NCBI GenBank assembly: GCA_028289605.1
Contig: JANQON010000009.1
Coordinates: forward strand, 496,001 to 560,000
DNA from: Hyphococcus sp.
GTDB lineage: Bacteria > Pseudomonadota > Alphaproteobacteria > Caulobacterales > Parvularculaceae
Direction of reading: 5' to 3'
DNA: 64,000 bases
Positions 5,026 to 42,100 of the stretch are shown piece after piece. The translations under genes were made by a program, and so were the position numbers. Numbering within the stretch: position 1 is the first letter of the stretch; the number at the start of each line of letters is the position of its first letter. Below the pieces are notes generated by a model. It did no database searches and was not told where the DNA came from. It saw nothing but the letters and a program-made list of their open reading frames with translations.

Positions 5026-5028
5026 GCC

Positions 5029-20649: not shown

Positions 20650-20805
20650 CTTTGACCCACCGTTGTCTCCGCTGACCCTAGAATAGTCTTGATCGGGACG
20701 AAAACGGCCGACGTTTGGGAGGAGACGCCGGCCGCCGCCGCAGACAAAGCGGACTGAACCCCACTTTCAACATTTTCGCTCGGGCGCCGCCCGGCGGAAT
20801 GTGAA

Positions 20806-20823
20806 AATGGTAGCGCTACCATT
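20806..20823. promoter_or_regulatory. XylR-type operator upstream of the GH43 operon
   Basis: AATGGTAGCGCTACCATT, an 18-bp perfect palindrome with the same 14-base core as the sites at 13354 and 22029. It lies between the end of the regulator gene and the start of the GH43 gene, in position to control the GH43-galM-phyH unit. Confidence 0.8.
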
Positions 20824-20864
20824 CTGACGTTTCACCGCCGCCTGTCAATAGCGGTTCTCCGCGC

Positions 20865-21926
20865 TCAGCTTGACGCCGGCGGCGCGCTTGTGCTCGCGCC
20901 CAAAACGATTTTGTATTTCATCTTCACCAGTTCAGACTGGTTTGCGCCGACGACTTGCGCGCTCCCGATCAGGTCCAGAAGCGAATTGATGGCCCCTGCG
21001 GCCATTTCCGCGAGAGGCTGCTTGACCGTCGTCAGCCGCGGAAACACCGCAGAGGCCAGGGGCGAATCGTCGAAACCGACAACAGAAAGGTTTGTCGGAA
21101 CCTTCAACCCTTCTGACGCCGCGACCGCAAGACATGCCGCCGCCATATCGTCATTGCTTGCAAATATCGCTGTTGGTCGCGGCGCCATAGCCAACAGCTT
21201 GCGCGCCGCCTTCAAGCCGGAATCATACGTGAACAGACCGCGTACGATCAGTTTCTTGTCGAACGCCAGACCGTGCGCCGCAAGCGCGTCTTTGTATCCG
21301 CGAAGACGCTCGCCCGTGGAAAACTGATTGGGGTTGCCCTTGATAAAGCCTATCCGCTCATGGCCGAGTTCGATAAGATAGTCGGTGATTTCCTTTGCAG
21401 CTGCATAGTCGTCAATGCAGATTTTTCGATTGCGGCCGCTCCCGCTCAGTCCGGACAAAAACACCGCGGGAATGTCGTTTTCCAGCAGGAAATCGCGGAC
21501 ACTGGCGTAGTCGCTGAGCGGCGGCGGCACAATGACACCATCATATTCTCCGATCAGGCTGGAAAGGCTGTCCTCGACCTTTTCTTCGGAAGCGGATTCT
21601 GAAACCTTTTGCACCAGCAACTGGTGTCCGTGCCGACTGATCTCCTCCAGGGCGCCGACGAGCAATTCACTCAAATAAAACGCCGACGGGTTTCCATAGA
21701 GAAGCGCAACCTTATAGGCCCGATTGCCGGCAAGCGCCCGCGCCGACAGATTTGGCTTATAATTAAGCGCGGCGACAGACTCTAGAACGCGCTCCTTGGT
21801 GGAGCTGCGAACATTCGCCTCTCCGTTAATGACGCGCGACACCGTCATCGGCGACACGCCTGCATGGCGCGCCACATCGCTGAGCTTGACTGTTTTTTCC
21901 TTCTGCAATGCGCTCCGGCCCGCCAT
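20865..21926 (-). CDS. LacI-family transcriptional regulator, probable xylose regulator
   Basis: A 353-residue repressor. The LacI helix-turn-helix is at about residues 14-35 (VKLSDVARHAGVSPMTVSRVING), followed by a hinge (YKPNLSARALAG) and a periplasmic-binding-protein-like effector domain (VALLYGNPSAFYLSELL, GHERIGFIKGNP, AIFASNDDMAAACL, LSVVGFDDSPLA). It is divergent from xylB, with one operator between them, and two more copies of that operator lie upstream of the GH43 and TonB/GH26 units. That arrangement makes it the obvious regulator, with xylose or a related sugar as inducer. It probably acts like C. crescentus XylR, but orthology is not shown. Confidence 0.92.
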   Translation of the reverse strand: MAGRSALQKEKTVKLSDVARHAGVSPMTVSRVINGEANVRSSTKERVLESVAALNYKPNLSARALAGNRAYKVALLYGNPSAFYLSELLVGALEEISRHGHQLLVQKVSESASEEKVEDSLSSLIGEYDGVIVPPPLSDYASVRDFLLENDIPAVFLSGLSGSGRNRKICIDDYAAAKEITDYLIELGHERIGFIKGNPNQFSTGERLRGYKDALAAHGLAFDKKLIVRGLFTYDSGLKAARKLLAMAPRPTAIFASNDDMAAACLAVAASEGLKVPTNLSVVGFDDSPLASAVFPRLTTVKQPLAEMAAGAINSLLDLIGSAQVVGANQSELVKMKYKIVLGASTSAPPASS

Positions 21927-22028
21927 GAACGTATCCGCCTTATCGCCTCCCTTTAACCCGATTGCCGTCGTCCGGTAAGTGCGGCCCGGCCTTCAAACGT
22001 CACGCGCCGCCACGATTGACGAACCGAA

Positions 22029-22044
22029 ATGTTAGCGCTACCAT
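22029..22044. promoter_or_regulatory. XylR-type operator before xylB (one mismatch)
   Basis: ATGTTAGCGCTACCAT has the same core as the other two sites with one base breaking symmetry. It overlaps an in-frame ATG at 22029, which argues that the true xylB start is the ATG at 22080. It stands between the divergent regulator and xylB genes, allowing control of both. Confidence 0.75.
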
Positions 22045-22079
22045 TTTCAAAATCAAGTCAGCCGGAAACTCCTGATCTT

Positions 22080-23540
22080 ATGTATTTGGGCATCGACATC
22101 GGTACGTCAGCAGTCAAATGCGTCGCGGTCGACGCTGACGGCGAAACGCTGGAACAGACGTCGGCGGCGCTCGCGGTGTCGCGCCCAAAGCCGCTTTATT
22201 CGGAGCAAAATCCCGCCGACTGGTGGGCCGCGACGAATAAAGCCGTTGCGGACGTCTCCCCCGCTCTCCGCGCGGACGTCGCCGCGATCGGCCTGTCCGG
22301 CCAGATGCACGGCGCGACGCTCATCGGCGAAGACGGCGCAGCGATTCGCCCGGCGATCCTCTGGAATGACGGGCGCAGTCTTGACGAATGCCATCAGCTC
22401 GAAGCGCAGTGTCCCGCGCTTGGGGATGTTACCGGAAACCGGGCGATGCCAGGTTTTACGGCGCCCAAACTCCTGTGGCTGAAAAACCATGAGCCCGACG
22501 CCTTTGATGCGGCCAAGCGCGTCCTCTTACCGAAGGACTATGTCAGGCTCCGGATGACCGGAGACTATGCATCGGATATGTCTGACTCCGCTGGGACGCT
22601 TTGGCTGAACACAGAGCGGAGAGATTGGGCTGACGACGTCCTTGAGGTCTGCGGCCTATCGCGACAGCAGATGCCGTCTCTATACGAAGGAAACGACTTT
22701 ACGGGGGAACTGCGCCGGGAATTGGCGGAGGCGTGGGGCATGCGCGTTGTTCCGGTCGCAGCGGGCGGCGGGGACAACGCCGCCGGCGCCGTCGGTTCAG
22801 GCACGGTCAGGCCGGGCGACGCCTTCCTTTCGTTGGGCACCTCAGGCGTGACATTTCTCGCGGATGATCGCTATCGCCCTAATCCTGAAGGCGGCGTTCA
22901 TACATTTTGTCATGCGCTTCCGGGACGATGGCACCAGATGTCGGTCATGTTGAGTGCGGCGAGCGCTGTCGACTGGGTCGCCAAGATCGCCGGCTTCAGA
23001 GATCCCGCAAGCCTTTTTGACGCGGCTGAACACGCAAATGCGCTCTGCTTGAGCGAGCTGTTTCTGCCCTATCTGACAGGCGAGCGAACGCCCCATAATG
23101 ATCCCCTTGCGCAGGGCGTTTTCTTTGGGCTGACGCAAAACACGGATCGCGTATCGCTTGCGCAGGCGGCGCTGGAAGGCGTGGCGTTCGGCCTCGCCGA
23201 CGGCGTCGACGCGCTGCACGACACAGGCGCGGCGATTGAAACGCTCACCGTGATCGGCGGCGGCGCAAGGTCGAAATACTGGGGCAGGATCCTGGCGTCG
23301 GTTCTAAACCAGCCTTTGATCTATCGCGCCGGCGCCGAAGTCGGTCCCGCCTACGGCGCCGCCCGCCTCGCCCGGCTCGCATTAACCGGAGAAAGCGTTG
23401 AAGACGTCTGCACCCCGCCGCCGATACGCGACATTATCGAACCGTCCGAGAAGATGAGAGATCACTTCGCCGCACGGCGCGGCCTGTTCCAGAACCTCTA
23501 CAAAAACCTGTCGCCGCTGTTCAGGGAGAACGTTCAATGA
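22080..23540 (+). CDS. xylB: Xylulokinase
   Basis: A 486-residue FGGY-family kinase. It has the N-terminal phosphate-1 motif [26 protein letters not shown] (sugar-binding region), AILWNDGRS with the substrate-contacting Asp, and the C-terminal FGGY-type motif ending [15 protein letters not shown]. The start at ATG 22080 gives the usual MYLGIDIG beginning; the upstream in-frame ATG at 22029 falls inside the operator. The stop overlaps the xylA start (ATGA), indicating coupled translation. It phosphorylates D-xylulose made by xylose isomerase. Confidence 0.95.
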
Positions 23541-24856
23541 CGGCTAGCTATTTCGCTGACATTCCAAAGGTTGAGTTCAAGGGACCAGACAGCGAGGACC
23601 CATTCTCTTACCGGTACTACGACCGCTCCCAAATTGTTCTCGGAAAAACGATGGAGGAGCATTTACGCTTCGCCGTCTGTTACTGGCATACGTTCTGTTG
23701 GGACGGGTTCGACGTCTTCGGCGCCGGGACGTTCAATCGCCCATGGCATGCGGGCGACCTCGATCAGGCTGCGGCGGAACGCAAACTTGATGAAGCGTTC
23801 GCGTTTTTTACGCGGCTTGGCGTTCCCTATTTTTGTTTCCACGATGTCGACGTGATGGCGGCGGCCGAGACGCCGGCGGACCATGTTCGCCATCTGTCGG
23901 CGATTGTCGACAAGATTGCCGACAAAATGGCCGAGACCGGGGTAAATCTTCTTTGGGGTACGGCCAATGTCTTCAGTCACCCCCGATATATGGCCGGCGG
24001 CGCAACCAATCCGGACCCGGACGTCGCCGCTTTTGCAGCGTTGCAAGTGGCGCACGCTATGGAAGCCACGCACAAGCTGAACGGCGAAAACTACGTTCTC
24101 TGGGGCGGCCGCGAGGGGTATGACTGTCTTCTGAACACCGATATGCGCCGGGAGCTCGACCAGTTAGGCCGCTTCCTGACAATGGTTGTCGAACACAAAC
24201 ACAAAATCGGATTTGAGGGCACGATACTGATCGAGCCTAAACCGCATGAGCCTACGAAACACCAATACGACACTGATGTCGCAACGGTTTACGGCTTTCT
24301 GAAACGCTATGGCCTCGAGAACGAGGTGCGCGTCAATATTGAAGCCAACCACGCAACGCTTGCTGGACACTCATTCGAACACGAAATCGCACTTGCAAGC
24401 GACCTCGGCATATTCGGATCGGTTGATATGAACCGCGGCGACCCTCAAAATGGGTGGGACACCGATCAATTTCCCAATGACCTTCGAGAGATTACGCTCG
24501 CGCTGTACTATATACTGAAAAGTGGCGGGTTCACGACGGGCGGTTTTAACTTTGATGCGAAAGTTCGGCGTCAAAGCATTGATGCGGAAGATCTGTTTCA
24601 CGGGCACATCGGCGCGATAGACCTGACCGCCCGGGCATTTCTGAACGCCGCCGCCATGCTCGAAGACAACGTAATTTCCCAATTCGTCGAAGATCGTTAC
24701 GCCGGTTGGAAGACCGGCATCGGCGCGCAAATGCTGGGTCGGGACGCAAGCCTTGCCGACGTCGCCGCCTATGCGGTCGATCAAAATATTCAGCCTGCGC
24801 TTAAATCGGGCCGCCAGGAGTGGCTTGAAAATTACCTCACCCGTCATGTGAAATAG
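23537..24856 (+). CDS. xylA: Xylose isomerase
   Basis: A 439-residue class II xylose isomerase. YFCFHDVDV carries the H102/D105 pair, [10 protein letters not shown] the early aromatic and His residues, [16 protein letters not shown] the metal-binding Glu and substrate Lys, and [17 protein letters not shown] the second metal site. A GGGAGAAC box precedes the ATG that overlaps the xylB stop. Together with xylB and the transaldolase it defines the isomerase route into the pentose-phosphate pathway, not the oxidative Weimberg route known from Caulobacter. Confidence 0.96.
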
Positions 24857-24870
24857 ACAAGGGAACATTC

Positions 24871-25524
24871 ATGAAGTTTTTTGCAGACACAGCCGAGGTC
24901 GACGCAATCCGGTCGCTGGAAGAAGCCGGCCTGATTGATGGCGTAACAACAAATCCGTCCCTGATCAAAAAGTCGGGAAGAGCGTTTCGTCAAGTCGTCG
25001 AGGAGATCTGCGCCGTAACCAAAGGTCCTGTGAGCGCGGAAGTCACCGCCGTGAACGCCCAGGCGATGATTGATGAGGGGCAATCGCTCGCCGCGATTGC
25101 TAACAATATTACAGTCAAGCTGCCGCTCACAGTGGAGGGCCTCAAAGCATGCCGCGCCCTGACCCGTGACGGCGTCATGACAAACGTAACGCTTTGCTTT
25201 TCAGCGCCCCAGGCGCTACTCGCTGCGAAAGCCGGCGCAACGTTTATTTCGCCCTTCGTGGGACGGCTTGATGATATTCATACGGACGGCATGGCGCTCA
25301 TTCAGGACATCCGGACAATCTACGACAATTACGATTACAAAACGGAAGTTCTTGCAGCCTCCATTCGTACGCCTAATCATATCAAAGAGTGCGCAATAGC
25401 CGGCGCCGATGTCGCCACGGCGCCGCCTGACGTATTGTGGCGACTGGCCGAACACCCGCTGACGCATAGTGGGCTCGACGCATTTCTGAAAGACTGGCAA
25501 GCGACCGGCCAGTCCGTGATTTAA
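24871..25524 (+). CDS. Transaldolase / fructose-6-phosphate aldolase (small type)
   Basis: A 217-residue TalC/FSA-type class I aldolase. The start [14 protein letters not shown] and the [12 protein letters not shown] motif are typical, and the Schiff-base Lys is K83 in NNITVKLPL. The C-terminal [13 protein letters not shown] also fits the family. The ATG has AGGGAAC upstream and follows xylA by 14 bases. In this operon a transaldolase role in recycling pentose phosphates is more likely than free aldolase activity. Confidence 0.92.
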
Positions 25525-25553
25525 ATCAACAAGCGGAGACCTATGACTGCCGG

Positions 25554-25566
25554 CGAAACCGTTTCG
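25554..25566. promoter_or_regulatory. Inverted repeat upstream of the GH3 gene
   Basis: CGAAAC-C-GTTTCG, two 6-base arms around one base, about 180 bases before the GH3 start. It resembles some LacI/GalR half-sites but differs from the three xylose-type operators. Confidence 0.25.
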
Positions 25567-25740
25567 AGTATCGGATCTCTTTAGCAGGTAAAATATCGGG
25601 AGGCCCTGGAATTATCCGTTTACGCCGCGACCTTGTTTGATGTAGCAACCATGTCGGTATCATCAACCGGACCTTTCGGACTATCCAGCGGACTAGAACG
25701 CGCTGCTGCATTCGCATCGACCATCAAAGGCAAGGCCGTC

Positions 25741-28311
25741 ATGACGCGACATTCGTTTTCCATGGGTTGGCGCCCGCGTTTCGCTCTCAGCATTTGTCTC
25801 AGCCTTGTTTTAGCAGCCTGTATAGAGGCGCCGGAGACCGATCCCATGCCAGAAGCCACATCCAGCGACATGAAGGCAAGTGTTGTCGCAACTCCCGAAA
25901 ACTGGCCGCCGATAGCCGTTCCCATCGCAAAGGACGAAGCGTTGGAGAAAGAAATCGACGAGATTCTTGCGCGGATGAGTCTGGAACACAAAGTCGGGCA
26001 AATCATTCAGGCGGATATCGGGTCCGTCACCCCTGAAGACGTTCGCCGCTACCATCTCGGCTCCGTTTTGAATGGCGGAAATTCAGCTCCGGGTGGAAAT
26101 CTGCGCGCCTCGCCCGACGAATGGCTGGCGCTCGCGGACGCATTCTGGGAAGCGTCCATGACCGCGGACGGACCGGGGATTCCGATAATCTGGGGAACAG
26201 ATGCGGTTCACGGCCATTCGAATGTGACGGGGGCGACCGTGTTCCCTCACAACATCGGCCTTGGCGCGACGCGCGACGCGACGTTGATTGAAGCGATCGG
26301 TGCCGCAACCGCAAGAGAAGTCGCTGTTACCGGTCTCGACTGGACATTCGCCCCAACGCTCGCCGTAGCATTGGACGATCGGTGGGGCAGGTCATATGAA
26401 TCCTATGCGGAGGATCCGGCGCTGGTCGCGGAGTTAGGCGCTGCGTTGGTCGTCGGACTTCAGGGCGCCCCCGGTTCGGATGCGTTCCTTGGCCACGATA
26501 AGGTTGTCGCAACATCAAAGCATTTTGTCGGCGACGGCGGCACGCTGGACGGCCGCGATCAGGGCGAAACCATCGCCTCGGAAGCGGAGCTACGCGACAT
26601 TCACGCTGCCGGTTACGTCACCACCCTGGAAGCGGGCGTTCAAAGCGTCATGGCGTCTTTCTCCAGTTGGGAAGGACGCAAAATGCATGGCCGCGAAGAC
26701 TTGTTGACCGATCTCCTGAAGCACCGGTGGCGGTTTGACGGTATGGTTGTCGGCGACTGGAACGGGCACGGACAAATTGAAGGCTGCACCGCGGAAGACT
26801 GCCCCGACGCGGTGAATGCGGGGCTTGATCTCTACATGGCGCCGGACAGCTGGAAGAACCTCTACCGATCAACGCTCGCCCATGTACGGTCGGGACGCAT
26901 CGCCGAATCCCGCCTTGAAGACGCTGTGCGCCGCGTCTTGCGGACGAAACTGCGCGCTGGCCTCTTTGACAAACCGAAACCCAGTGAGCGTCCGCTCGCC
27001 GCTAATTGGGCGTTGCTCGGCGGCGTCGATCACACCGACTTGGCGCGGGAAGCGGTGCGTAAATCCGCCGTCTTGCTGAAAAACAATGCAAACGTATTAC
27101 CGCTCCAGCCGAAGTTGCGCGTCCTGATCGCCGGTGCCGCCGCGGACGATCTCAGCATGCTTTCCGGCGGCTGGACTCTTTCCTGGCAAGGCGACGGCGT
27201 CAGCAAGGCGGACTTTCCCAACAGCGAAACCATCCTCGACGGCGTACGTCGCGTCGTAAGCGCAGCAGGCGGCGAAACGGAATACAGCGCTGAAGGCGAG
27301 TGGAACGAAAATCCGGACGCCGCAATCGTTGTCTTTGGCGAAGCGCCTTACGCCGAATTTCGCGGCGATATTGCGACGCTCGACTACAAGCCGGGCGACG
27401 ACCGGGACCTCGCCATGCTAAAGCGATTACGAATGGATGGTATTCCCACAATCGCCGTCTTCCTTTCGGGGCGGCCGCTTTGGGTCAATCCGGAACTGAA
27501 CGCATCCGACGCATTCGTTGCCGCCTTCCTTCCCGGCGCACAGGCGGGCGCCCTCGCCGACATTCTCTTTTCAGATGAAGCGGGAAACGTCACTCACGAC
27601 TTCAGCGGGCGGCTATCGTTTTCATGGCCCGAGGATGCCGACCAATACCGTCTTAATCCTGACGATCCCGGCTATGAACCGCTCTTTCCCTTCGGATACG
27701 GACTGACCTACGCTGATCGCGAAAACATCGGGCCGCTTCATAAAAATGCGGTCGTTGCGGATGTCGATTACAGTATCCTGTTTGATCGCGGCGCGCCGCT
27801 TGGCGAGTGGAAGGCGTTTCTGGCTGACGGCGAAGGCGTGTCGGAATGGCGATCCGGCCGGACGTCGTCTCCGACCGGCGCATTAACGGCGCAGTCCGCA
27901 GACCTCGGCCAGCAGGAAAACGCCGTCCGTCTCGCCTGGAATGGAAACGGCGCGGCGCGTTACGTCATGCAACACGAAGCGGTGGACCTGACGCGCGAGG
28001 TCGACGCCCAATTTGAGCTTATAATCGATTACCTGGTCGAAATTCCGGCCGAAGGCCCGGTATCCCTCACCTTCACCTGCGGCGATGATTGCGCGTCAGC
28101 TTTTGACGTCAGCGAATCGTTTCAGTTGTCGCCCGACGCGGGCGTTTCCAGCCTGGCGATACCGCTGAATTGTCTGACGCAATATGGCGTAGACGTTGCT
28201 CAAATCGACACATTTTCTCTGAGTGCGAGCGCGCGCCTGACGGCGGTCATATCCCGTATTGCGATTGCGCCAAGGACCGAACCATCAGAATGCCCGACGC
28301 TCGCGCAATAA
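25741..28311 (+). CDS. GH3 beta-glycosidase lipoprotein (ExoP-like)
   Basis: An 856-residue glycoside hydrolase family 3 enzyme. The N-terminal lipoprotein signal ends LVLAAC. The TIM-barrel domain contains GIPIIWGTDAVHGHSNV and FVGDGGTLDGRDQGE. The nucleophile Asp lies in MVVGDWNGHG. The alpha/beta sandwich (VLLKNNANVLPL) and a C-terminal domain starting about residue 680 (VVADVDYSILFDRG) complete the ExoP layout. Members cleave beta-glucosides or beta-xylosides; here xylosides are plausible. I chose ATG 25741 because the lipoprotein signal begins there; the frame is open to 25633 without a good start. It follows the xylose operon but lacks the xylose-type palindrome. Confidence 0.9.
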   Translation: MTRHSFSMGWRPRFALSICLSLVLAACIEAPETDPMPEATSSDMKASVVATPENWPPIAVPIAKDEALEKEIDEILARMSLEHKVGQIIQADIGSVTPEDVRRYHLGSVLNGGNSAPGGNLRASPDEWLALADAFWEASMTADGPGIPIIWGTDAVHGHSNVTGATVFPHNIGLGATRDATLIEAIGAATAREVAVTGLDWTFAPTLAVALDDRWGRSYESYAEDPALVAELGAALVVGLQGAPGSDAFLGHDKVVATSKHFVGDGGTLDGRDQGETIASEAELRDIHAAGYVTTLEAGVQSVMASFSSWEGRKMHGREDLLTDLLKHRWRFDGMVVGDWNGHGQIEGCTAEDCPDAVNAGLDLYMAPDSWKNLYRSTLAHVRSGRIAESRLEDAVRRVLRTKLRAGLFDKPKPSERPLAANWALLGGVDHTDLAREAVRKSAVLLKNNANVLPLQPKLRVLIAGAAADDLSMLSGGWTLSWQGDGVSKADFPNSETILDGVRRVVSAAGGETEYSAEGEWNENPDAAIVVFGEAPYAEFRGDIATLDYKPGDDRDLAMLKRLRMDGIPTIAVFLSGRPLWVNPELNASDAFVAAFLPGAQAGALADILFSDEAGNVTHDFSGRLSFSWPEDADQYRLNPDDPGYEPLFPFGYGLTYADRENIGPLHKNAVVADVDYSILFDRGAPLGEWKAFLADGEGVSEWRSGRTSSPTGALTAQSADLGQQENAVRLAWNGNGAARYVMQHEAVDLTREVDAQFELIIDYLVEIPAEGPVSLTFTCGDDCASAFDVSESFQLSPDAGVSSLAIPLNCLTQYGVDVAQIDTFSLSASARLTAVISRIAIAPRTEPSECPTLAQ

Positions 28312-28389: not shown

Positions 28390-28827
28390 TCAATCCTCTA
28401 CCGGCGGAAGCCACGTAAGCGATGAATGGTGCAACGAGATGAGAACGCGACCGTCCAGCTTGTGGTAGGCGAATGTATAGTCGGCGCGCGTCGCATTGCC
28501 GTCGCCGTCAATGAAAGTGTAGTGCCCCATATCCTTGTATCCGAGACCGCCTGCCTTCAGAACCGGACCAGCGGCGCTCTGGAAGTCAACCCGGCGCCAA
28601 CCGCGATTGAGAAAGCCATGATCGTGGGGGTAGTTCGGATCACCGCCGACAAAATAAGATCGCGCGCCTGCGCGATCGAGCCGAATAACATCCGCCAAGG
28701 TCGGCTTGAAAAGCAGCGGCTCGTCCGGGGCGCCGAAGTCATAAAGGTCCAGGAGCTTTTCGACGTCTTGCTCCGTAACGTATTTGGCCCATGCGCGTTG
28801 CGCGGCGACCACTTCGGCCTTCGTCAT
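28390..28827 (-). CDS. NTF2-like / DUF4440-type protein
   Basis: A 145-residue protein of the SnoaL/NTF2-like cone fold: MTKAEVVAAQRAWAKYVTEQDVEKLLDLYD is the usual N-terminal helix pair, and the C-terminal strands HYTFIDGDGNATRADYTFAYHKL and GRVLISLHHSSL match association-domain-like proteins. No signal peptide and no catalytic residues that can be named. It converges with the GH3 gene and appears monocistronic. Function unknown. Confidence 0.75.
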   Translation of the reverse strand: MTKAEVVAAQRAWAKYVTEQDVEKLLDLYDFGAPDEPLLFKPTLADVIRLDRAGARSYFVGGDPNYPHDHGFLNRGWRRVDFQSAAGPVLKAGGLGYKDMGHYTFIDGDGNATRADYTFAYHKLDGRVLISLHHSSLTWLPPVED

Positions 28828-29350
28828 AGGCTCGTAAATTCGATCAGTAATCCTGAAAACTCCTCATCTGCCGGCAGCAGCTAATGGTGCAGGACGCGGC
28901 CGGTTATGTCTAGATCGAGACCGTCGCGGCGGAGTCTCTTCGACACCGCGTCGCCGCCCGAGTAAATCTCACAACAGAGCTTGAGCCGATACTCAGGCTG
29001 CCTCCTAAATCATCCGCAGGGATCCGACGCTGCGCCCGGCCGGCGACTGACCGCAAGCATCACACGCAACGCGCGTCGGCAGATCGGAGTCCGGCCCGAA
29101 ATACAACAGAACAGCCCAATCGCAATGACCGATTGTTCATCATTGTTACTTCATATCAGTGTTTCTGAGCGTCTCTCTCAATCCGTGAAAAAGCGGGCCT
29201 GCGGATTGCGCGCCGTCACCTCCTGTCGTGTACACGCATACAGTACGCGTTCGCCTGCCGCCCTTTTATCGACTCGCTTCAACCGCGCCGGCCTGCTACT
29301 ATTGACCCAGCGTTGCGTTCCAATTGATCGCAGACCATGGGGAGAGAGAG
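28828..29350. other. Intergenic stretch, nothing recognised
   Basis: About 520 bases between two divergently oriented genes. Open frames here have no coding character, and no repeat, RNA gene or clear operator was seen. It must hold the promoters of the NTF2-like gene and of the large VWA protein. Confidence 0.5.
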
Positions 29351-32215
29351 ATGGTCGCCAAGAGATCCGCGCTTGCAAACACTATTCAGTCTTTGTCTTT
29401 TGTCGTCGCATTGGCGTTTGCGCCGGCGGCGCAATCGGGCGTCATCGGCGCCGACGGCGGCGTTACGCTCTGGATATCCTGGGACAATTTGGACGCTACC
29501 GGCGCAGAACTGAATGATCCGATTACGGAGGCAAACAGCTCCACGACTGTGCCTGGCGCGTCATCATGCACTCCAACCAACAATGCTCGCGGCGCACAGG
29601 GAGCATCGAATTCGCCGGCGTCCTGCCCTGCGACAGGAACGTGCACCGGACGGGACAAGATATCCGGCGACATCGAATTTCTCGCCGACTACATTTTCAG
29701 CGCATCTGAAGGGGCGCATTATCTTCGGCGTGTTTACATCGCCGACCAGGGTCGCTCGTGGGAAACATCAGACGTCAAATGGAATGTCGGCGGCGGCGGC
29801 TCTTCTGCGCGGTCGGGGGCATGGGCCAATCCCGATGTTGCAATGAATATGCGGTCTGCGTTCCGGACCTGCATTCACGACGTGGCGCATCACGAACTGG
29901 GGCATTACTTTTACACGCTTCCCGATCGATATCGGGACGTCTATGATTCGACCAATCCGGACGATGATCCCTATTACAGGGGACGGATTGACGGCGGCGA
30001 TATCTTCAACGTCGACATCAATGTCGGCGATCCGAATACCGTTATGTCCGGCAACTTCCCGCATCGTTTCGTCGATACGACCAACGCATCGATTACCGTG
30101 AGTTATGATCCGCCCGGCGGCCCCGCCGTCAGCAATGAGGTGCTGACGCCCGACTTGCTGACAGACGGCGATCCGGACAATGACGGACCCGATCGAGCCC
30201 ATCACGGACACACCATGCCCTTCGCTTCCGACGAATGGAGCTTGTTGCCGGACCGGCACGCAGATATGACCGGCGTTCACACCGAAGGCTCTTTTCCGGC
30301 TCCAGGCGCGCGGCCGGCGGTGGACATCGTTTTCATCGGCGACGACGAACCGTTTCCCGGTTTGGTTCTCCTGCTCGACCGATCCGGCTCCATGAGCGTC
30401 GAGACAGACGGCGTTCCTGCATCGCAGTTTGTGCAGGAGGCCGGCATGTATCTTTACCATTCTTCGGAAGACGACGATTTCGTTGGCACATACCATTACA
30501 ACGAGAATGTCGATGAACTTTTTGAATATGCGCTTTACGATTCAGCCAACTCGCTTGCAGCGGCTGATTTTGCGGACGCGCAAGGTCTCACCGACATAGC
30601 GGAAGCGTTGGAGACGGCAATCGACGCCCTTATCGCAGAACACGGCGAAGGAGCGGTGAACGGAGCTCAAATCTATTTGATGTCCGACGGACGCCAAACC
30701 ACAGGCGACAGTCTTTGGGATCAAGTCGAACGCGCAAGCGAACGCGGCATCATCATCAACACGTTTTCGTTCGGCAACGCCGACACTGAAACAATGGACA
30801 GCATCGCCAACGGAACGTCAGGCAGCAACACGCCCGTGTCCGAACGCGACGACGCTTCCGAGCTTAAGTCGTTGATGACGCGGAAACTCTCAACGGGACG
30901 CGGATGGACGCCCGTGTACTCACTGAAAGGCCCGCTCCCCCTGAATGCCGACGCGATAACCACCGGCGCAGCGCGGTTTCAGCCCCATACCGGTTCTTTC
31001 GTAGTGCCCGGCGCCAGTCGCAACCTGCAATTCTACGCTTTTATTGACGGCGGCGACGCCTCGCGCGATCTCGCGTTTCAACTGGTCGATCCGAGCGGCG
31101 ACGTCTTTACCGCCAGTTCGCCGAACAATGTCGCGAGAAAAGGCCGTTTTAATGGGATCAGCGTCAACCAACCGGAGGCCGGCGTTTGGAATTATTTGAT
31201 CGCCCCCGGCAATCTCGATGCGCGCTGGCCGCCGGATGGGCCGGTGGAAGTGACGGCTTATGTCGAGAATCGCGAGTTGACCAGTCGATTCTGGCTTGGC
31301 GATTTGCGCGAAGACGGCAGGGTTCCGATGCATGCGGAACTATCATTCCGCTATGCGTTGAGCGACATCGACGCGCGCGCGCAACTGTTCGTCGGCGGCC
31401 AGAATGTTGGATCCGTGCAACTGCTCGACGACGGCGCAGGGGCAGACACGCAAGCGCAGGACGGAATTTATTCCGCATTTATAAGCGCTGGCCAATGGCG
31501 CAAACTCATCAATTCAGTTGACGACGATGCCGACACGTTGCGCGTCGATGTTGAGTTTACCGTTACCAATGCGTCGCGCCCGGCGCCGCTCGCCCATTAT
31601 GAAACCGGTTATACGCCGGCGCGGGCGGAAGCCGATTATCGCAATCGGAACAGTTTCGAATTCAAAGCATGGACGACCGGCGTCATCAAAGCCAGAGACT
31701 TTGACGACAGCACTCGGCCGTTCATCGAACCTGATGGACGGGGACCGGGCGCGCCTGGAGGCGACGGTTGGCGCGACTTTGGCTTCAACATCTTCAATGC
31801 GCGCCCGCTAGAAAGTCAGCTGCGCGTCACATTGGGAACCGATTATGAAGTGGAAATCGATGATGTTTCCGAATGCGATCAATCGGCGACGCAGAGAGAT
31901 TATGTCCTGTGCGCCCATGTGACAGGCCGGTTTCGGCCCCGCGACAGCGGCAATGACGTCGATCCCGGACCAATGCGCGCGCAGTTTAACGACGTCATCG
32001 TCGCAACGCCTGATGTCTTCGGATCAGACGATGGCGGCGACGGCGGAAGCGGCATTCCGCCGAAAACGGACCCTCATCAACATGACACGCATTGCATCAA
32101 GCTATGCAGCGACAACCCATACCTGCTTTGGGGCCTTGTATTCCTGCTGTGCCTGATTGCGCTGTTGTTGTTGATTATCGTGCTTCGGCTGACGTTCATG
32201 CGCGTCAATCGATGA
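29351..32215 (+). CDS. CLCA-like secreted metalloprotease-VWA membrane protein
   Basis: A 954-residue protein. The signal peptide runs from MVAKRSALANTIQ to about residue 29. An N-terminal domain holds the zinc motif H181-E-L-G-H185, with D192 seven residues on, the spacing of the CLCA form HExxH-x6-D. A VWA domain follows with MIDAS D343-x-S345-x-S347 (DRSGSMS), a Thr in GLTDIAEAL and the Asp in LMSDGRQTTG. Then comes a beta-rich region with the LLDDGAGADTQAQDGIYS motif (about 691-708), close to the equivalent CLCA segment. It ends with a membrane helix (about 926-947) and a short basic tail. The start has GGGGAGAGAGAG before the ATG. Domain order matches animal CLCA proteins. No partner gene is adjacent; function unknown. 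Confidence 0.8.
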   Translation: MVAKRSALANTIQSLSFVVALAFAPAAQSGVIGADGGVTLWISWDNLDATGAELNDPITEANSSTTVPGASSCTPTNNARGAQGASNSPASCPATGTCTGRDKISGDIEFLADYIFSASEGAHYLRRVYIADQGRSWETSDVKWNVGGGGSSARSGAWANPDVAMNMRSAFRTCIHDVAHHELGHYFYTLPDRYRDVYDSTNPDDDPYYRGRIDGGDIFNVDINVGDPNTVMSGNFPHRFVDTTNASITVSYDPPGGPAVSNEVLTPDLLTDGDPDNDGPDRAHHGHTMPFASDEWSLLPDRHADMTGVHTEGSFPAPGARPAVDIVFIGDDEPFPGLVLLLDRSGSMSVETDGVPASQFVQEAGMYLYHSSEDDDFVGTYHYNENVDELFEYALYDSANSLAAADFADAQGLTDIAEALETAIDALIAEHGEGAVNGAQIYLMSDGRQTTGDSLWDQVERASERGIIINTFSFGNADTETMDSIANGTSGSNTPVSERDDASELKSLMTRKLSTGRGWTPVYSLKGPLPLNADAITTGAARFQPHTGSFVVPGASRNLQFYAFIDGGDASRDLAFQLVDPSGDVFTASSPNNVARKGRFNGISVNQPEAGVWNYLIAPGNLDARWPPDGPVEVTAYVENRELTSRFWLGDLREDGRVPMHAELSFRYALSDIDARAQLFVGGQNVGSVQLLDDGAGADTQAQDGIYSAFISAGQWRKLINSVDDDADTLRVDVEFTVTNASRPAPLAHYETGYTPARAEADYRNRNSFEFKAWTTGVIKARDFDDSTRPFIEPDGRGPGAPGGDGWRDFGFNIFNARPLESQLRVTLGTDYEVEIDDVSECDQSATQRDYVLCAHVTGRFRPRDSGNDVDPGPMRAQFNDVIVATPDVFGSDDGGDGGSGIPPKTDPHQHDTHCIKLCSDNPYLLWGLVFLLCLIALLLLIIVLRLTFMRVNR

Positions 32216-32606: not shown

Positions 32607-32701
32607 TCCGCTGGAGGCGGCGTCGGGAATACGTCAGGCTCAGCAGTAACCGACCACATCCCGATCGGCTATGCGGCGCAGAGCAGGAGGAGTTTTTGGG
32701 C

Positions 32702-34117
32702 ATGACGTTCGTAGAGGGACTCGGCTCAGGCGCGCGACAAGGTTTACGGACGCCGCTTCTCGTCGCGCTGGCGACAATGTTGCTCGCCGGGTGCGCTCAA
32801 ACGTCAATACGCGCCGACGACGTATCGTTCGCGCAGACGGCGCAGACCGAATCAATCACGCATTATGAAGGTCTCAAAGCGCGGTTCGAACGCATGACCG
32901 ATCCGGACGCCGCGCAGCGCATTCTTGTCGTCAACGGCATGGCGACGGACGCCCACGGCTATTCCTTCGACCTCCAGAAGAAGATTGCGAAACGCCTTGG
33001 ACAAGAGACGTGTTTGGACGACAGCATTTTCGCGCTTGATCCTCCAGCCTTCATCTTGGGACACATTGATGAGGAACGGTTTGAATACCCGCCGGCGACG
33101 CTCAGGGTGACCGGGTGGACGAGCCGTGAAAACAACAGATCAAAGCTGATTTTCTACGAAGTGCTGTGGACGCCCTACGCCGACGCCATGACCGACCAAT
33201 TCCTTGCGCCGTTTGAAACGGATCTTCGTTTTGCGTCAAATCCGGAGTGGACGCGGTGCGGCGGCGAACCCGACCGTCCGCCAGCCAGCGAACGCCGGGT
33301 CCAGGGGCGCGAACGGCCGCGCCGCGCTCTGCTCAATGCGCTTATCAAAGACGACTTCATGGTCGGGGGGCTCACCGACGCCGTGTTGTCAGTCGGGCCG
33401 CTTGGGGCCGCCGCCCGAGACGCCATTCGTCAAGGCATCTGCTTTATGGCCGCTGACGCGCTCGAAGCGCCCTCAAGACCGGAAAGCGCCGCGCGGTGCC
33501 GGCTGACCGAAGAAACGCTTGCCCGGTTCGGCGGCGCAAGCGGCGTCGCCGAACGCCTCGGCCAGCATGATTTCACCTTTCTGGCCTATTCGCTTGGCAG
33601 CTTCATGCTGCTCGATTCGCTTGACGAATTCCGGTTGTGGCCCGGCGATCTGGGTCCGCCGGAACTGACCTGTCGACTCATGCCGCCGCTTCTGGACGAC
33701 GCGCCCGTGTACATGTTCTCAAATCAGATTTCGCTGTTGCTGGCCGCGCACCCGCAATTCGGGTGTGATCCCGATTCCAATTGCGACCTCTATGGAGAGT
33801 TCGGCAATCGCCGCCTCTTGCTGGCGGATCCGAGAGATCATGGGCGCAACGGCGGCGAACCCGAAGCGTGCGCGGTGGAGACAAGTCTTCAAGTGATCGC
33901 GTTCAACGATCCCAACGACATCATGGGCTATCGCGTGCCCGACTATGTTACCGACAGCCCGCTGATTGACAGCGTGATGAATGTCCGCGTGCGCAATCCG
34001 GCGTTTCGCATTCCGGGCCTTCTCGTCAGTCCCGTCGCCGCCCATACAAATCACGGCGATAATGCAGCGATACTGGATTTCATTATTGAAGGCTGGGCGC
34101 GTCGGTCACAACCGTGA
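32702..34117 (+). CDS. Lipoprotein with alpha/beta-hydrolase features, unknown function
   Basis: A 471-residue protein with a lipoprotein signal (MLLAGC). The body contains ILVVNGMATD near the N-terminus (possible oxyanion region), FLAYSLGSFMLLDSL with a nucleophile-elbow-like Y-S-L-G-S, IAFNDPNDIMGY (possible catalytic Asp) and SPVAAHTNHGDN (possible catalytic His), in the right order for a serine hydrolase triad. I do not recognise a named family. AGGAGGAG lies about ten bases before ATG 32702 and about four before an in-frame TTG at 32696; the ATG is preferred. It seems to stand alone, with an FNR-like box upstream. Hydrolase assignment is inference. Confidence 0.7.
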   Translation: MTFVEGLGSGARQGLRTPLLVALATMLLAGCAQTSIRADDVSFAQTAQTESITHYEGLKARFERMTDPDAAQRILVVNGMATDAHGYSFDLQKKIAKRLGQETCLDDSIFALDPPAFILGHIDEERFEYPPATLRVTGWTSRENNRSKLIFYEVLWTPYADAMTDQFLAPFETDLRFASNPEWTRCGGEPDRPPASERRVQGRERPRRALLNALIKDDFMVGGLTDAVLSVGPLGAAARDAIRQGICFMAADALEAPSRPESAARCRLTEETLARFGGASGVAERLGQHDFTFLAYSLGSFMLLDSLDEFRLWPGDLGPPELTCRLMPPLLDDAPVYMFSNQISLLLAAHPQFGCDPDSNCDLYGEFGNRRLLLADPRDHGRNGGEPEACAVETSLQVIAFNDPNDIMGYRVPDYVTDSPLIDSVMNVRVRNPAFRIPGLLVSPVAAHTNHGDNAAILDFIIEGWARRSQP

Positions 34118-35259: not shown

Positions 35260-36120
35260 TCAAAACCGCTTCTGCACGTTCACGCTGCCGCCATAAAGAG
35301 TGAGATCGCCGGTTTCGCCGAAGGCGCCGACGGAGACGACAAAGCCGGACTTATGCGCATAGGCGAGCGCGGCGTCGAGTTGCACCTGCCGATCGACCGC
35401 GCGGCCCGTGGTGCGGAAGGAGGGTGAGCCCGCCGGCGCCGCGGCGAAGCGGCTGGCGAAGATGTTCTCAGTGTCGTCGAAATACTGAACGCCGGTCGCC
35501 CGCGCGCTGAGCGACAGTCTGCCGGCGACGCGCCGTTCATACGTCGCCCCGACGCCGATCTGCCAGCGCGTGTTGTTGAGCCCGTCCACCGCCAGCGCCG
35601 TCGTTTCCGCGGCGCCGAGATTGATCGCATCCTGGCGATAGACGGCGACGCCGGTCTGCAGGTGGGGTTTCAACGCCCATGCGTCGCCGCCGGTCCTGCC
35701 GTCGAGGGTGAGGCGGGTCAGCCAGTCGACGCTGGAAACGCCGGCGTCGCCGCGCTGGACGACCGTTTCATCTGTGGCCGGATCACCTAAGGTCATGGCG
35801 AGCTCCGTATCGCCGGTCGCATAGCCGACGACACTGTCGAGGCGAGCATCGAAAGCGCTGAAGCCGAAGCGGGCGCTTGCGGTCCCGGCGATGTGGAAGA
35901 GGTCGGCGTCGGCGGCGTCGCCGAACGCCCCGTCGACCTCGCCGTCGAAATTCGAGTAGCCGCCGGCGATCCCGAACGAGAACGGTCCGGCCGCGATCCC
36001 CGACACGCCCGCCGCAAAGGAGAAGGCGGATCCGTCGAAATCGATATGCTGGGTCCCGCCGTCCTGGCTGAGACCATAGACTTCCATCGCGCCCCAGGCG
36101 GTTGCGGCATCGCCTCCGGA
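35260..36120 (-). other. Autotransporter beta-barrel domain
   Basis: The last roughly 285 residues show alternating hydrophobic strands (AFSFAAGVSGIAAGPFSFGIAGGYS, FDARLDSVVGYATG, RQVQLDAALAYAHKSG) and a terminal aromatic (QKRF). This is the standard C-terminal translocation barrel and supports outer-membrane anchoring of the passenger. Confidence 0.85.
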
Positions 36121-39100
36121 CGCCGCGGCGACAGGCCCGCCGCTTAAAGACGCGAGCCTGGCGGAATGCCGCGCGCCGCCCGCAATCGACGCCTGACTGA
36201 GCGCCAGGCCAATGAACCGCGACTGCGACGCCGACAGGAATTTCAGCCCGAGATCGAGCCCCTCCGGCGTCAGTTCCCCGAGCGCGTCCCCGAGTGCGTC
36301 AACGTCCTCGATTCCGCCCACCGCATTGATCACGCTGAGCAGTCCCGAATGGAGCGATGGGTCACCCAGAAGTCCAATGAGATTGTCGCCCACCGCAATC
36401 TGGTTTTTGTTCAATCCGTTTACTGACGATGCGGTATTGACAGTAGTGGTCAACACGACGTCGAAATTGGCGGCGTCGACGTCGATCGCCTGACTGATGA
36501 GCAGGCCGTTCTGGGCGTTGACCGTATCGAATGCGCCGCTTACCCCGGTCCCGCCGTCAATAATTGTCCGCGTCGAAACCCCGAACGGCGCGCCCGCCAG
36601 GGTGATGACCTCAAGCGTTCCTCCGAGCGTGACGTCGCCGGCAACGACAACAAGATCGCTCGTCGCGCCGATCTCGATCGGCAGAACGCCGGTCGCGCCG
36701 AGCACGAGATTGCCGTTGACCGTAAACGTCCCCGGAGAATCGCCCACATCGAGCGTGCCGTTGTTGGTGAGAACGCCGGTCAGGATCGAGCCGTCGGCGG
36801 CGTTGAGCGTCGCGCCCGACGCGATGAGCGCCGTCGTCGCCTCCAGCGAGCCTGACAGTCTGGTCTCGCCCGACACGAAAGTCGCTTCGTCGAAGTTCAC
36901 GAGCGCGCCGGTGATGTCCTGCCCGCCGCCGAGGAAGTTCGCGATCTCGAAGCCTGAGAAGGCGTCGCCCGCCCCGTTGCCATCGCCGATCGCGCGGGCG
37001 GGACCTGAGAAGGTCACTGTATCGACACCGTCCCCACCCAGAACATTCGTGAACGATCCGCCGGCTTCATTAAACGTGTCGTCGCCCGCCAGTAAAAGCG
37101 CGTCGCCCGTGACCGAGCCGCCGGCATTGATGGTCAGCATGTCGTTGACCGGATCGCCCGCCGCAACGCTGCTGTCGGTGACAATCGCCGCCGCCCCGCC
37201 GGTCACCGAACCGCCGTCCTCGACGATGACGCTTGCGCCGCTCGCCGTCGCGGCGCGCACGCCCTCTTCGGTTTCGCCCGCAACGGCGCCGGCGATCCTG
37301 ATCACCGTCTCGCCGGCCCCTTCGCTGTGCGCGTCAATGCCCTTCAGGGAGCCTTTGACATTGCCGACCGGCGCTTCGCCGCCGATGTTTACGCCGCCCG
37401 CGCCGGCGCGGACATAGAGGCCCGAGCCGCCCCGGCCGTCGACCAGAGCGCCGTCCCCCACGCCGACGTTCTGAATGGAGATGTCGCCGCCGCTGGAAAC
37501 CGCCCTGACGCCGTGGCCGTCATAAAAATAGCTGTTAGAATAGCTGTAATACGCACCGGGGTTGCCGGTGATGGTCGTCACATCGCTGATGGTTATGTCG
37601 CCGCCGCCCGAGTCGAGATCCAGCCCGTAGCCGCCTTCGCCCGTGACGGAGTCGAGAGTCTGCACCGTGATATTTCCGCCGTTGGATCGCTGACGAACGC
37701 CGTGCACCGCGCCAACGATGTAGCCGCCGGACGATCCTTGCAACAGGATATTTCCGCCAATGGAACTCGCATAGACGCCGTCTCTATACCAGCCCGTAAC
37801 GCGCGCCGCCCCTGTAGCCGTCGACGTAAGCGTGATGTCCACATCGCCGTCGCCGACATCGTTAGAGGAAGAATTGAATCTGCCAAAAGCAGCGATGCCG
37901 TAACCGCCGGTCACATCGCCGACGGTGATCGATGTGCGGCCGCTTGAGCCAGAATTGACGGTGCTAATGCCACTGGAAAGAACGGCGCCCACAGCGGTGT
38001 AGACGGCGCCCGCCGTGGTGTCGATCGTCAGATTGTTATCGAAGCCGTTGACGCCTATTTTGGCGTCGATCCCGGAAACCCACACTCCGCCGGCGACGTT
38101 GATATCCGCCGTTGTGATTGAAACATCGCCTTGTCCCAAGTTGCCTACCTGTATGCCGTCGCCGAAAGTGCTGGTCACCGTTCCGTTCGTGGTGTCGACG
38201 ACGACGTCGCCAGTCGTCGTATACCCGCTATTGACGTTGATCCCAAAGAGGGACGTCACATCGCCCGTGGTTATGCTTGTCCCGCCCGTTCCAAAGTTTC
38301 TTGCAATAATCCCGGTACCAGCAAGCCTGGTACCGGAATTGACGATCACATGGCCCGTGACATTGACTATAATATCCGTCGCTTCGGAGTCGCGATCGTT
38401 TCGCACTAAGATGCCGTTGCCGCCCTTGTCGCCGTTGGCGGCGGAGATGTCGGCCACGTTCACGACGGTCGCCCCGACGCCATTGTTGGACGCCCAGACG
38501 CCAGTACGACCGGCGTTGATTGTTCCCGCCACCGTGACGGAAAGACCCGCGCCGGCCCCGTTCTCCGCATTGACGCCGTCCTGGCTGGCCGTGACATTGC
38601 CGATCGCCTCTACGCCGCCGATGTTTAAGTCGCCGGTCCCGGAACGCGCATAGACGCCGTGGCCGTCCCGGCCGTCCACCAGGGCGCCCTCCCCGACGCC
38701 GACGCCCTGAATGGAGATGTCGCCGCCGTCGGAAATCGCCTTGACGCCGTGGCCTTCGTTCGGGTTTGCGTTGTCGCCATAGCCGGTGATGTTCGTCACC
38801 CTGCTGACCGTGATGTCGCCGCCGTAAGAGGCGAGATCCAGCCCGTGGCCGCCCTGGCCCGTGACAGAGTCAAGCTTCTGCACGGTGATGTCCGCGCCGG
38901 CGGTTCTGAGATAGGTTCCGTGCGTCGATCCCGTGATGTCGCCCGACGAACCCTGCACGGTGACGTGCGCCTCGGCGCCGGTCGACGCCGCGTCAACGCC
39001 GGCCCCGTCCCCGCCCTCTACATCGCCGGTGGAGCCCAGGGTGATAACTGTCTCCCCGTCGGCCGCGCGCGCGTATACGCCAGCGCCGCCTTCCGCCGTA

Positions 39101-42100
39101 AGCTCCGCGACGGTGACGTTAATCGCGCCGTCATTTTCGACCGCAACGTCGACGCCGTTTGAATCGGTTCCGGTCGACACAATCGATCCGGTGGACATGA
39201 TGTTGAAATCGCCGCCGCCTGTACGGGCGTAAACGGCGTGCGAATCGATGAAGCCGCCTGTGGAGATAAGTGCGGTGGATGTGATGGAGATGTCGCCGTT
39301 CTCGGATTCCGCCCAGATGGCGGGCGATCTGAAGCCGGGATTGTTCACCGCGGCAGTATCGGTGAGCGCGATCACTATCGACCCGTCGCCGTGCGTCGTC
39401 GCAACGACGGCCCTGCCGCTATTGCCTGCGCCGTAAATCTTGCCGTTCGGCGTTTCGCCGCCGATATTGATGTCGCCGCCGGCGGCGGAAGCCAAGATGC
39501 TTACGCTGTCGCCTCTGATCCCGCCGACGAGGCCCGAACCCTGGATCGAGATCGCGCCGCCGTTGCTGAACGCCTCGATCGCGGACGGCGCGCTCGAATT
39601 GCGACCAATGAGCGTATCAACCCCGCTCACCGTGATAACGGAATCGCCGCCGTATGTTCTCGCAGTAATGGCGTCGCTGCCATTGCCGATGATGGAGTCG
39701 AGGTTCCGCACCGTGATATTCCCGCCCGGGCCGCCGCCGCGCTTTGCGCCGGATTGCAGACGAACCCCCTTCGTCGCCCCGTAAATCTCGCCGCCCGAAA
39801 GGCCTTGCAGCAGAATGTCCCCGGCGAAGGCGTTAACATCGACGCCCATGGTCGAGCGGCTCTGAAGGACCGCCGTCGACGTCAGGGTAATCTCTGTCTC
39901 GCCGTATTCGCCGGTCTTCGCATAGACGCCGAGGTCGCCGATAACGTCGTCCACTGTCAGGCTGAGGCCATCTCCGCCGTATTGAATCGCGTTGATGCCG
40001 ATAGCGCCGCCGGTGACGGCCCCGCCCGAAGTGTCGATAGTGAGATCGCCGCCGGTGTACGCAACGCGTGCGTCTATGCCGTGGCGGCTGCCCGTAACAT
40101 TGCCGATCGCCTCCAGGCCGCCGATGTTGACGCCGCCGGCGCCGCGGGCGAGGGCGCGGGCGTAGATCCCGTGGCCTTCCCGGCCCTCGACCAGACCGTT
40201 CGTCCCTGTACCGACATTCTGTATAGAGACGCCGCCGTTGCTTGAAACCGCTTTGACGCCATGGCCCTGATCGCCGGGGGTTGTCGTATCGCCGTAGCCG
40301 ACAATGGTCGTCACGTCGCTGATTGTGACGGCGCCGTCGCCTGCATCCGCATCGACCCCGTGGCCGCCCTGGCCCGTTACGGAATCGAGGGTCTGCACGG
40401 TGATGTTCGCGCCGGCCGAGCGCATGTAAATCCCGTCCGTCCCGCCGATGACGTCGCCGGAGGCGCCTTGGACGGTGATATGGGCGGTTGACTGTTCGCT
40501 CTGTGCGAAAATGCCCGCCTCGCTTTGACCGGTGACGTCATTGACGGTGATCGTCGTCACGCCGCCGCCTTCATTGGTTGTGTTTATGCCCCGGCGCGCG
40601 CCGTCCACCGCGCCGGCGCTCGTATCGATCGTCAGGTCGCCGCTGACCGCGGCGCCGGGGGAGACGGGTGCAATGCGCACCTCGACGCCGTCGTCGCCGC
40701 CGGTGACATCGCCCAGCGCCGCCTCGCCGCCGAGCGTCACGTCGCCGGTGCGCGACCGGACGTATATCCCGTCCGCCTGGCCCGTGCTTGTAATGCCGCC
40801 GGCGAGACCGGAGCCCTGAATCGAAACGTCGCCATAAACGCCGACAACGTGCATGCCGGCGCCGCTTCGACCGCTCGCCGCCCCGACAGACGTGATCTCG
40901 ATAGCGCCGTTTCTGGAGTAGGCCTGAACGCCTCTGCCCTCTCCCAGCGCATCGATGGCGACAGAGGCGATGTTGCTGATCGTGATGTCGCCGTCCGCGG
41001 TTTCAACATCGATCGCTCTGTTGGAGGCGCCGGTGACGCTCCCGAGATCTGAAATGGTGATGGAACCGTCCGCAGCCTCGGCCCTGATCCCCGAGCCGTT
41101 TTCGCCGTCGATTGCGGTGATTGACGATATGGTGATTTCGCCCAGGCCGTCGGTCTCGGTTTCGATTCCGTGGTGACCTTGGCCCGTGACGGAGTCAAGC
41201 GTCTGCACCGTGACGTTCGCGCCGTAGGCGCGCGCAAAAATCCCATGCTCCCCGCCGACGACGTCGCCGGAGGAGCCCTGCACGGTGATATGAGCAGTCG
41301 ACTCTCTGCTCCTCGCGAGAATCCCTTCCCCGCTTCGGCCGGTGACGTCATTGACGGTAATCGTCATCACGCCGACGCCTTGACTGAATGCGTTTATGCC
41401 CCTTTGCGCGCCGTCCACCTCGCCGGCGCTCGTATTGATCGTTATGGCGGCGCCGTTTGTTGAGTTGAAAGTGTAAATGCCGTCGTCGCTGACGCTGGTT
41501 ACGCGAGCCGTCGTAATGTCAATTGCGGCGCCGGCGCCGGCGGTATGCGCAAAGATTCCCTGATTAGCGCCCGACACCACCCCGGTCGTTATGATCGTTA
41601 CGTCGTTACTTGTACTAGTCGCGCGGATTGCCGCGCCCCCGCCAGCGAGCGAAGTAACGTCTCGCGCCGTGACCGACACGACAGAACCCGAGGAACTGTA
41701 GGCGTAGATTCCCACCTCGCCGCCGGTCACGGCGCCCGCGCTCGTATTGATCGTTATGGGGCCGCCGGAATCAACTTTCGCAAAAACGCCGTGTCGGCTG
41801 CCCGTGACATTGCCGACGGCGCCGATGACTTCGCCGGTCACGCTGTCAACTTCGCCGCCGATATTGACTTCGCCAAATTCGGTATAGGCGTAAATCCCGT
41901 GGCCGTCCCGGCCTTCGACGAGATTGCCGTCGCCCAGGCCGACGCGCTGGATGGAGATGTCGCCGCCGTCGGAAACCGCCCGGACGCCATGGCCATTAGC
42001 GATCTGGGCGCCTGCGTCGCCGACGCCGGTGATGTTCGTCACGTCGGCGATCGTGATGTCGCCGTCTTCGGTTAAAGTGTAGATTCCTGCGCCGGCCGAG

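Follow-up and report, generated by a model that had tools for sequence, protein, structure and literature searches.

The gene at positions 29351 to 32215 (plus strand) of the analyzed window, a 64,000-nucleotide stretch of contig JANQON010000009.1 from Hyphococcus sp. (Parvularculaceae), encodes a 954-residue protein that we read, with moderate confidence, as a zinc metalloprotease that is secreted, tethered to the membrane, and laid out like the animal CLCA proteins. As far as sequence can tell, it probably works as a zinc protease of the envelope, docking through the VWA domain. Lenart et al. described bacterial proteins with the CLCA layout in 2013 (PMC3650047), from Shewanella, Alkalilimnicola, Plesiocystis, and others, and among the titles listed by a literature search for work after that paper none concerns bacterial CLCA proteins. 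The window protein is a variant on these published proteins, with a protease domain that lies outside the recognized CLCA model.

The open reading frame starts with ATG at 29351, preceded by GGGGAGAGAGAG, and ends with the stop at 32215; it opens earlier at an in-frame TTG at 29324, giving an alternative of 963 residues. Its own genome contains a single match to the protein. The mean hydropathy over 19 residues exceeds 1.4 at two places only, residues 15 to 33 (1.67) and 929 to 947 (3.29), bearing out the signal-like N terminus and single C-terminal membrane helix described in an earlier reading of the letters alone (the sequence-only reading). A short basic tail follows the helix, and with this arrangement of both ends some 890 residues should form an ectodomain outside the cytoplasm. 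The GC fractions of the three codon positions (0.614, 0.479, and 0.646) lie inside the spread of ten genes from the window, the third being near the low end of theirs (0.632 to 0.730); composition gives no sign of recent transfer. The features of the gene are as follows.

29351 to 32215, plus strand: whole gene, CLCA-like zinc protease/VWA protein of 954 residues (frame and full-length kin)
29351 to 29437, plus strand: signal-peptide-like N terminus, residues 1 to 29 (hydrophobic peak at 15 to 33; cleavage position estimated by eye)
29438 to 30355, plus strand: N-terminal domain of putative zincin type, residues 30 to 335 (alignment and profiles of kin)
29891 to 29932, plus strand: zinc site HELGHYFYTLPDRY, residues 181 to 194 (conserved H181, E182, H185, D192, and Y194)
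30035 to 30049, plus strand: NTVMS, residues 229 to 233, a possible Met-turn (conservation of M232)
30362 to 30880, plus strand: VWA domain, residues 338 to 510 (PF00092, E 9.2e-12; MIDAS residues D343, S345, S347, T414, and D446)
30983 to 31270, plus strand: beta-rich region, about residues 545 to 640 (the TIGR00868 match spans its counterpart in relatives P0003 and P0004)
31418 to 31489, plus strand: choice-of-anchor X domain with LLDDGAGAD..DGIYS, residues 690 to 713 (NF041940, E 3.2e-6)
31580 to 31609, plus strand: PAPLAHYETG, residues 744 to 753, a speculative counterpart of the CLCA processing region (conservation)
32135 to 32191, plus strand: C-terminal membrane helix, residues 929 to 947 (hydropathy)

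Zinc site and N-terminal domain

The comparisons rest on an eight-row alignment of the window protein (P0001) with seven relatives. Six rows are close members (P0001 to P0004, P0008, and P0009), and the other two are the gammaproteobacterial proteins P0005 and P0007. The zinc site carries HELGH at residues 181 to 185 and D192 seven residues past the second histidine, and H181, E182, H185, D192, and Y194 are identical in all eight rows; the HExxH count expected by chance from composition is 0.019. The sequence-only reading had placed an Asp behind HELGH at the CLCA spacing and had numbered the glutamate 182, correctly in both respects. By this arrangement, His181, His185, and Asp192 would hold the zinc and Glu182 would activate water. 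M232 is retained in the six close members and is unaligned in the other two rows. Four cysteines upstream of HExxH (73, 92, 98, and 174) are common to the six close members, and no row has a cysteine between HExxH and the DxSGS motif of the VWA domain.

The CLCA consensus is HExxHxxxGxxDEY (PMC3650047); the window site has Thr at the consensus Gly and DRY in place of DEY. P0005 and P0007 retain the Glu of DEY, and their sites, HEFAHYAHALYDEY and HEFGHYAHSLYDEY, fit the M64 pattern HExxHxxxxLxDEY and fit the CLCA pattern except for the Gly. A core profile of the six close members, window protein included, scored P0007 at 40.1 bits and P0005 at 29.1 bits; among 2000 shuffled versions of P0005, the highest score was 11.7. 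The top match of that search, L064 (89.5 bits), holds part of the window protein itself and carries no weight. A profile-profile comparison of the N-terminal domains gave 92% (E 7.9e-8), with 0.1% for one unrelated HExxH protein as the control, and in a whole-genome search a four-row profile reached the N-terminal domain of P0007 at model positions 98 to 195 (E 7.1e-10). By these profile comparisons, the N-terminal domain is homologous to that of P0005 and P0007 with their HExxHxxxxLxDEY site.

The eight-row core profile had a single PDB match at E<=10, the "Metallo-endopeptidase" 3P1V (E 0.24), with the active sites aligned; 3P1V is named an M64 peptidase where CLCA and M64 sites are likened (PMC3650047). 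Among the eight excised cores, searched with Pfam at a limit of E 10 under HMMER filters that discard most matches above about E 0.1, M64 (PF09471) matches four (best E 0.0054), Reprolysin_5 two (0.0035), Reprolysin_3 two (0.007), Reprolysin_4 one (0.026), Peptidase_M48 two (0.0085), and Peptidase_Mx two (0.028); for the core of the window protein, no M64, Reprolysin, M48, or Mx model gives a match at that limit. The M64 and reprolysin models are thus the nearest named matches of the protease domain, and weak ones. No PHROGs match of the excised cores went below E 0.019, and Pfam matches of a core at E 0.1 to 0.22 (a herpesvirus protein; phycodnavirus, acetone carboxylase, and phage families) were set aside as chance. 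Judged from these sequence matches, the N-terminal domain most likely belongs with the zincins near M64 and CLCA; CLCA_N identity itself is unsupported at the profile level.

VWA domain

The DxSGS motif lies at residues 343 to 347, and T414 and D446 complete the metal ion-dependent adhesion site (MIDAS); D343, S345, S347, T414, and D446 are identical in all eight rows, in agreement with the MIDAS-competent VWA domain proposed earlier. Above cut-off, Pfam gives only VWA-type models for the window protein, PF00092 and VWA_2, and two further sub-threshold Pfam matches fall in the same region. Through a divalent metal held here, the domain may bind a partner or substrate and deliver it to the protease.

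A six-row VWA profile searched against the PDB (23 solved sequences at E<=10) found the VWA domain of human CLCA1 (6PYO) at E 6.3e-9, with the next match at 0.09, and a four-row full-length profile found the CLCA1 VWA alone at E<=0.1. The VWA domain of P0005 as a single sequence also reached CLCA1 (3.8e-12; next match, 1.2e-4); phmmer with the single window sequence found nothing in the PDB at E<=1. For three control VWA domains, CLCA1 came first for L029 (8.1e-8; next match, 2.7e-7), took second place for L017, and was sixth for L053, the controls being single sequences and the test a profile. The CLCA1 match by itself was rejected as proof of kinship, since it is also the best match of one of these controls; the argument for a CLCA-type VWA therefore stands on the gap to the next match and not on top rank.

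Beta-rich part, choice-of-anchor X segment, and C-terminal ends

The NCBIfam model of animal CLCA proteins, TIGR00868, scores 54.8 bits on the window protein against a cut-off of 900.85, the better of its two stretches covering residues 339 to 511; one sub-threshold NCBIfam match falls in the VWA region as well. The best TIGR00868 stretch is confined to the VWA domain in the window protein, P0002, P0008, and P0009, and spans VWA plus the beta part in the other two of the six close members (P0003, 335 to 699; P0004, 327 to 694), as it does in P0005, P0007, and an archaeal plasmid protein (L074). In none of eight other VWA proteins, hand-picked from the loci of two TIGR00868 searches, does the stretch run beyond model position 505, and NF041940 is absent from all eight at E<=1e-4. 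Because other VWA proteins score equally, the TIGR00868 score was rejected as a demonstration of kinship with CLCA. Among 175 relatives of genome G960, the model matched one, the P0005 locus L011 again. Searched by itself, the beta part matched nothing in the PDB at E<=10; weak Pfam matches to PPC and hemicentin-GBD occur in three of six excised regions each, the window's own having neither.

LLDDGAGAD begins at residue 691 and DGIYS at 704, and both lie in a choice-of-anchor X domain (NF041940, 690 to 713; 26.7 bits, cut-off 25). The model stays below cut-off in P0002 (18.3 bits), P0004 (22), P0008 (22.6), and P0009 (22.4), P0003 being unlisted, and its cut-off is passed by P0005, P0006, P0007, and the archaeal L074 protein. 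The sequence-only reading had taken the segment as nearly identical in pattern to CLCA. The segment is present, but it was rejected as a CLCA hallmark because it is NF041940, which also occurs in prokaryotic proteins with another HExxH domain or none. We read the part from VWA through the beta region to choice-of-anchor X, on sequence likeness, as a prokaryotic chassis common with CLCA.

Other VWA proteins were also seen. P0006 (L012) has a weak MXAN_6640-type HExxH match (28.8 bits, cut-off 140) before VWA and choice-of-anchor X, which puts a different protease-like part on this chassis. The haloarchaeal plasmid protein at L074:2044-4389 has VWA, beta part, and choice-of-anchor X with a C-terminal stretch of hydrophobic residues (mean 1.73, starting at residue 756) and no HExxH. 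The L024 and L025 proteins have a tyrosinase-like N-terminal match (about 86 bits, cut-off 450) before VWA.

By analogy with CLCA, self-cleavage past the choice-of-anchor X domain is possible; CLCA cleavage presumably falls shortly after CLCA's own LLDDGAGAD-like segment. H749, Y750, and E751 of PAPLAHYETG (residues 744 to 753) are kept in the six close members, and self-processing near this motif would be a guess drawn from the same analogy.

The C-terminal ends differ among relatives. Both Parvularculaceae proteins end in a membrane helix. P0008 has a PEP-CTERM end (Pfam, 20.4 bits, just under the cut-off of 20.7; TIGR02595, 18.6 bits, cut-off 16), P0009 a PEP-CTERM-like end judged by eye only, and P0005 a JDVT-CTERM end (27.1 bits, cut-off 27). 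The end of P0003 is hydrophobic with no family given, P0004 lacks such an end, and the frame of P0007 is truncated by the locus end. If the C-terminal module determines the place at which the protein is anchored, this would account for relatives carrying a membrane helix, PEP-CTERM-like, JDVT-CTERM, or no such end.

Relatives and distribution

The full-length family is rare and patchy in the prokaryotic genomes searched. Of 149 relative genomes, 4 matched: its own, one from another genus of the same family (G059, full-length, 50%), and two in the VWA region only. At class level, 1 of 385 genomes matched, again its own. A single-sequence scan of genome contigs gave no further locus, and a scan with a two-row alignment yielded three loci from 58 pattern matches, in metagenome-assembled genomes of Parvularculaceae (L005, the record of the G059 match), Myxococcota (L006), and Marinagarivorans (L007). 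Within the order of the L006 genome, 3 of 79 genomes match (its own plus L062 and L063), and within that of the L007 genome 2 of 194 (its own plus L060, via the N-terminal domain). P0005 (L011) and P0007 (L060) come from two genomes of the gammaproteobacterial class and order sample. A tblastn search of phage and plasmid records with P0001 found no relative at E<=1e-3, and two scans of viral contigs returned 25 and 249 pattern matches, none of them confirmed.

Identities to the window protein in the eight-row alignment are 49, 47, 45, 47, 46, 21, and 21%. The tree of these rows, rooted at the midpoint, pairs the window protein with L005 (85/81, not starred) and groups L006, L062, and L063 (88/94, not starred), with L007 unplaced. 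The window, L005, L006, and L007 loci share no neighbors, as judged by eye. The L007 locus also carries a TrkH-like potassium-uptake gene (4214-5668, minus strand; by eye), which is transcribed divergently from the Marinagarivorans homologue of the window gene.

Weighing of alternative explanations

The CLCA plan was claimed in full by the sequence-only reading. Domain order, ligand spacing, MIDAS, C-terminal helix, and a CLCA1-like VWA uphold it; PF08434, DEY, the cysteines after HExxH, FN3, and the R/ALY site do not. Several results weigh against our reading. At the position of the DEY Glu, five of the six close members have R and one has L; Pfam assigns no protease family to the window protein or its core; and the 3P1V match is sub-significant. 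The CLCA N-terminal model PF08434 matches none of the four full proteins P0001 to P0004 and not the one excised N-terminal domain (limit E 10), nor P0005, nor any of the eight excised cores. A top-ranked CLCA1 VWA is not specific alone, one of three controls sharing it with rivals close; unrelated VWA proteins reach 56.4 bits on TIGR00868 against 54.8 for the window protein; and a whole-genome search with that model (17 of 321 genomes at E<=1e-8) missed P0004's own genome, making it a blunt tool for this family. By the refuting condition that the sequence-only reading had itself set, the strict claim of a CLCA N-terminal domain fails at the profile level. PF08434 also has no match in the window protein's own genome, in 398 phylum genomes, or in 14 control genomes, so that the test has no positive control, and its silence is not decisive because it also misses P0005, which keeps DEY.

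These limits of PF08434 leave some room for a true CLCA orthologue acquired by horizontal transfer, with CLCA_N diverged past the reach of the model. Such an orthologue would share the domain order, the spacing of the third ligand, and the CLCA-type VWA, and both bacterial CLCAs and a transfer hypothesis for them are published (PMC3650047). It is unlikely given the lack of a PF08434 match, of DEY, and of FN3 (none in P0001 to P0004 at a limit of E 10, none in P0008 and P0009 at 0.01), and all eight rows lack both a cysteine from HExxH to VWA and an R/ALY or K/ALY cleavage site (no RALY or KALY; the sole ALY of the window protein, at 394, is within the VWA domain). Slightly less improbable, though still unlikely, is a fusion of protease and VWA that arose independently of CLCA by convergence of architecture. 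VWA plus choice-of-anchor X does occur with other N termini, the MXAN_6640-type HExxH part of P0006 and the archaeal plasmid protein without HExxH, and replacements of CLCA_N by M10 or CHAP have been published (PMC3650047); what stands against it is the homology of the N-terminal domain to that of P0005 and P0007, whose DEY site has the M64/CLCA form. The least probable alternative is a sensor or adhesin with a functional VWA and a structural or decayed zinc site. Loss of the DEY Glu would suit it, and substituted active sites are described for many CLCAs (PMC3650047); yet all eight rows retain HExxH, the third-ligand Asp, and the Tyr behind it, which is unexpected for a decayed site. These alternatives are compatible with the functional reading as a zinc protease and not mutually exclusive with it.

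For the zinc protease favored here, processing of envelope or extracellular proteins is more likely than regulation of a channel, a role the sequence-only reading had also raised and which was rejected for want of any supporting context.

We tentatively consider, as a doubtful but consequential scenario, that the CLCA plan was assembled in prokaryotes: the chassis of VWA, beta part, and choice-of-anchor X would have received M64-like zincins, perhaps repeatedly, the window family and P0005/P0007 would be stem or sister lineages, and animals would have obtained CLCA from bacteria. If true, this would reverse the published direction of transfer. Animal CLCAs are important in mucus, in asthma, and in the control of channels, and the origin of their unusual architecture is unsettled. 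A CLCA-like bacterial layout with its protease outside the CLCA model, together with a chassis without protease in an archaeal plasmid protein, makes the question of origin testable, and the window family offers bacterial models of a zinc-protease/VWA/membrane-anchor protein.

Neighboring genes

Upstream of the gene, positions 19078 to 28311 hold genes for the use of sugars (arabinanase-like, LacI regulator, FGGY kinase, TIM-barrel protein, transaldolase, and GH3), and GH3 was matched in 9 of 40 relatives in a search for the syntenic site. They are followed by a 145-residue frame (28390 to 28827, minus strand) with a partial NCBIfam match to metal-independent carbonic anhydrase (78 bits, cut-off 350) and no Pfam match at E<=0.01. 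Downstream lie a frame of about 470 residues with a lipoprotein-like start (32696 to 34117, plus strand), without a Pfam or NCBIfam match at E<=0.01, and a repeat-rich frame of 2735 residues that appears autotransporter-like by eye (35260 to 43467, minus strand).

Comparison with known systems

The literature on animal CLCAs places a C-terminal helix in CLCA2 and CLCA4 (PMC9007345, PMC10669480) and self-cleavage near residue 700 (PMC10669480), with PMC6851300 as a further source on their features. The window protein resembles CLCA (PF08434; TIGR00868) in its signal, HExxH with Asp spacing, MIDAS VWA, C-terminal helix, and, less surely, beta-rich part. It differs in the silence of PF08434, in the Gly-to-Thr and DEY-to-DRY changes, and in its cysteines, none of which lies between HExxH and VWA, four preceding HExxH instead. 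With M64 (PF09471; 3P1V), it shares the pattern HExxHxxxxLxDxY, and 3P1V is the sole PDB match of the core profile; unlike the window protein, 3P1V has DEY and three downstream cysteines holding a second zinc. Proteins with NF041940 share the segment, which is over cut-off in the window protein, but the domain comprises only 37 positions and the part preceding it varies. P0005 and P0007 have the same series of HExxH domain, VWA, and choice-of-anchor X, with homologous N-terminal domains, and differ from the window protein in their 21% identity and in keeping DEY.

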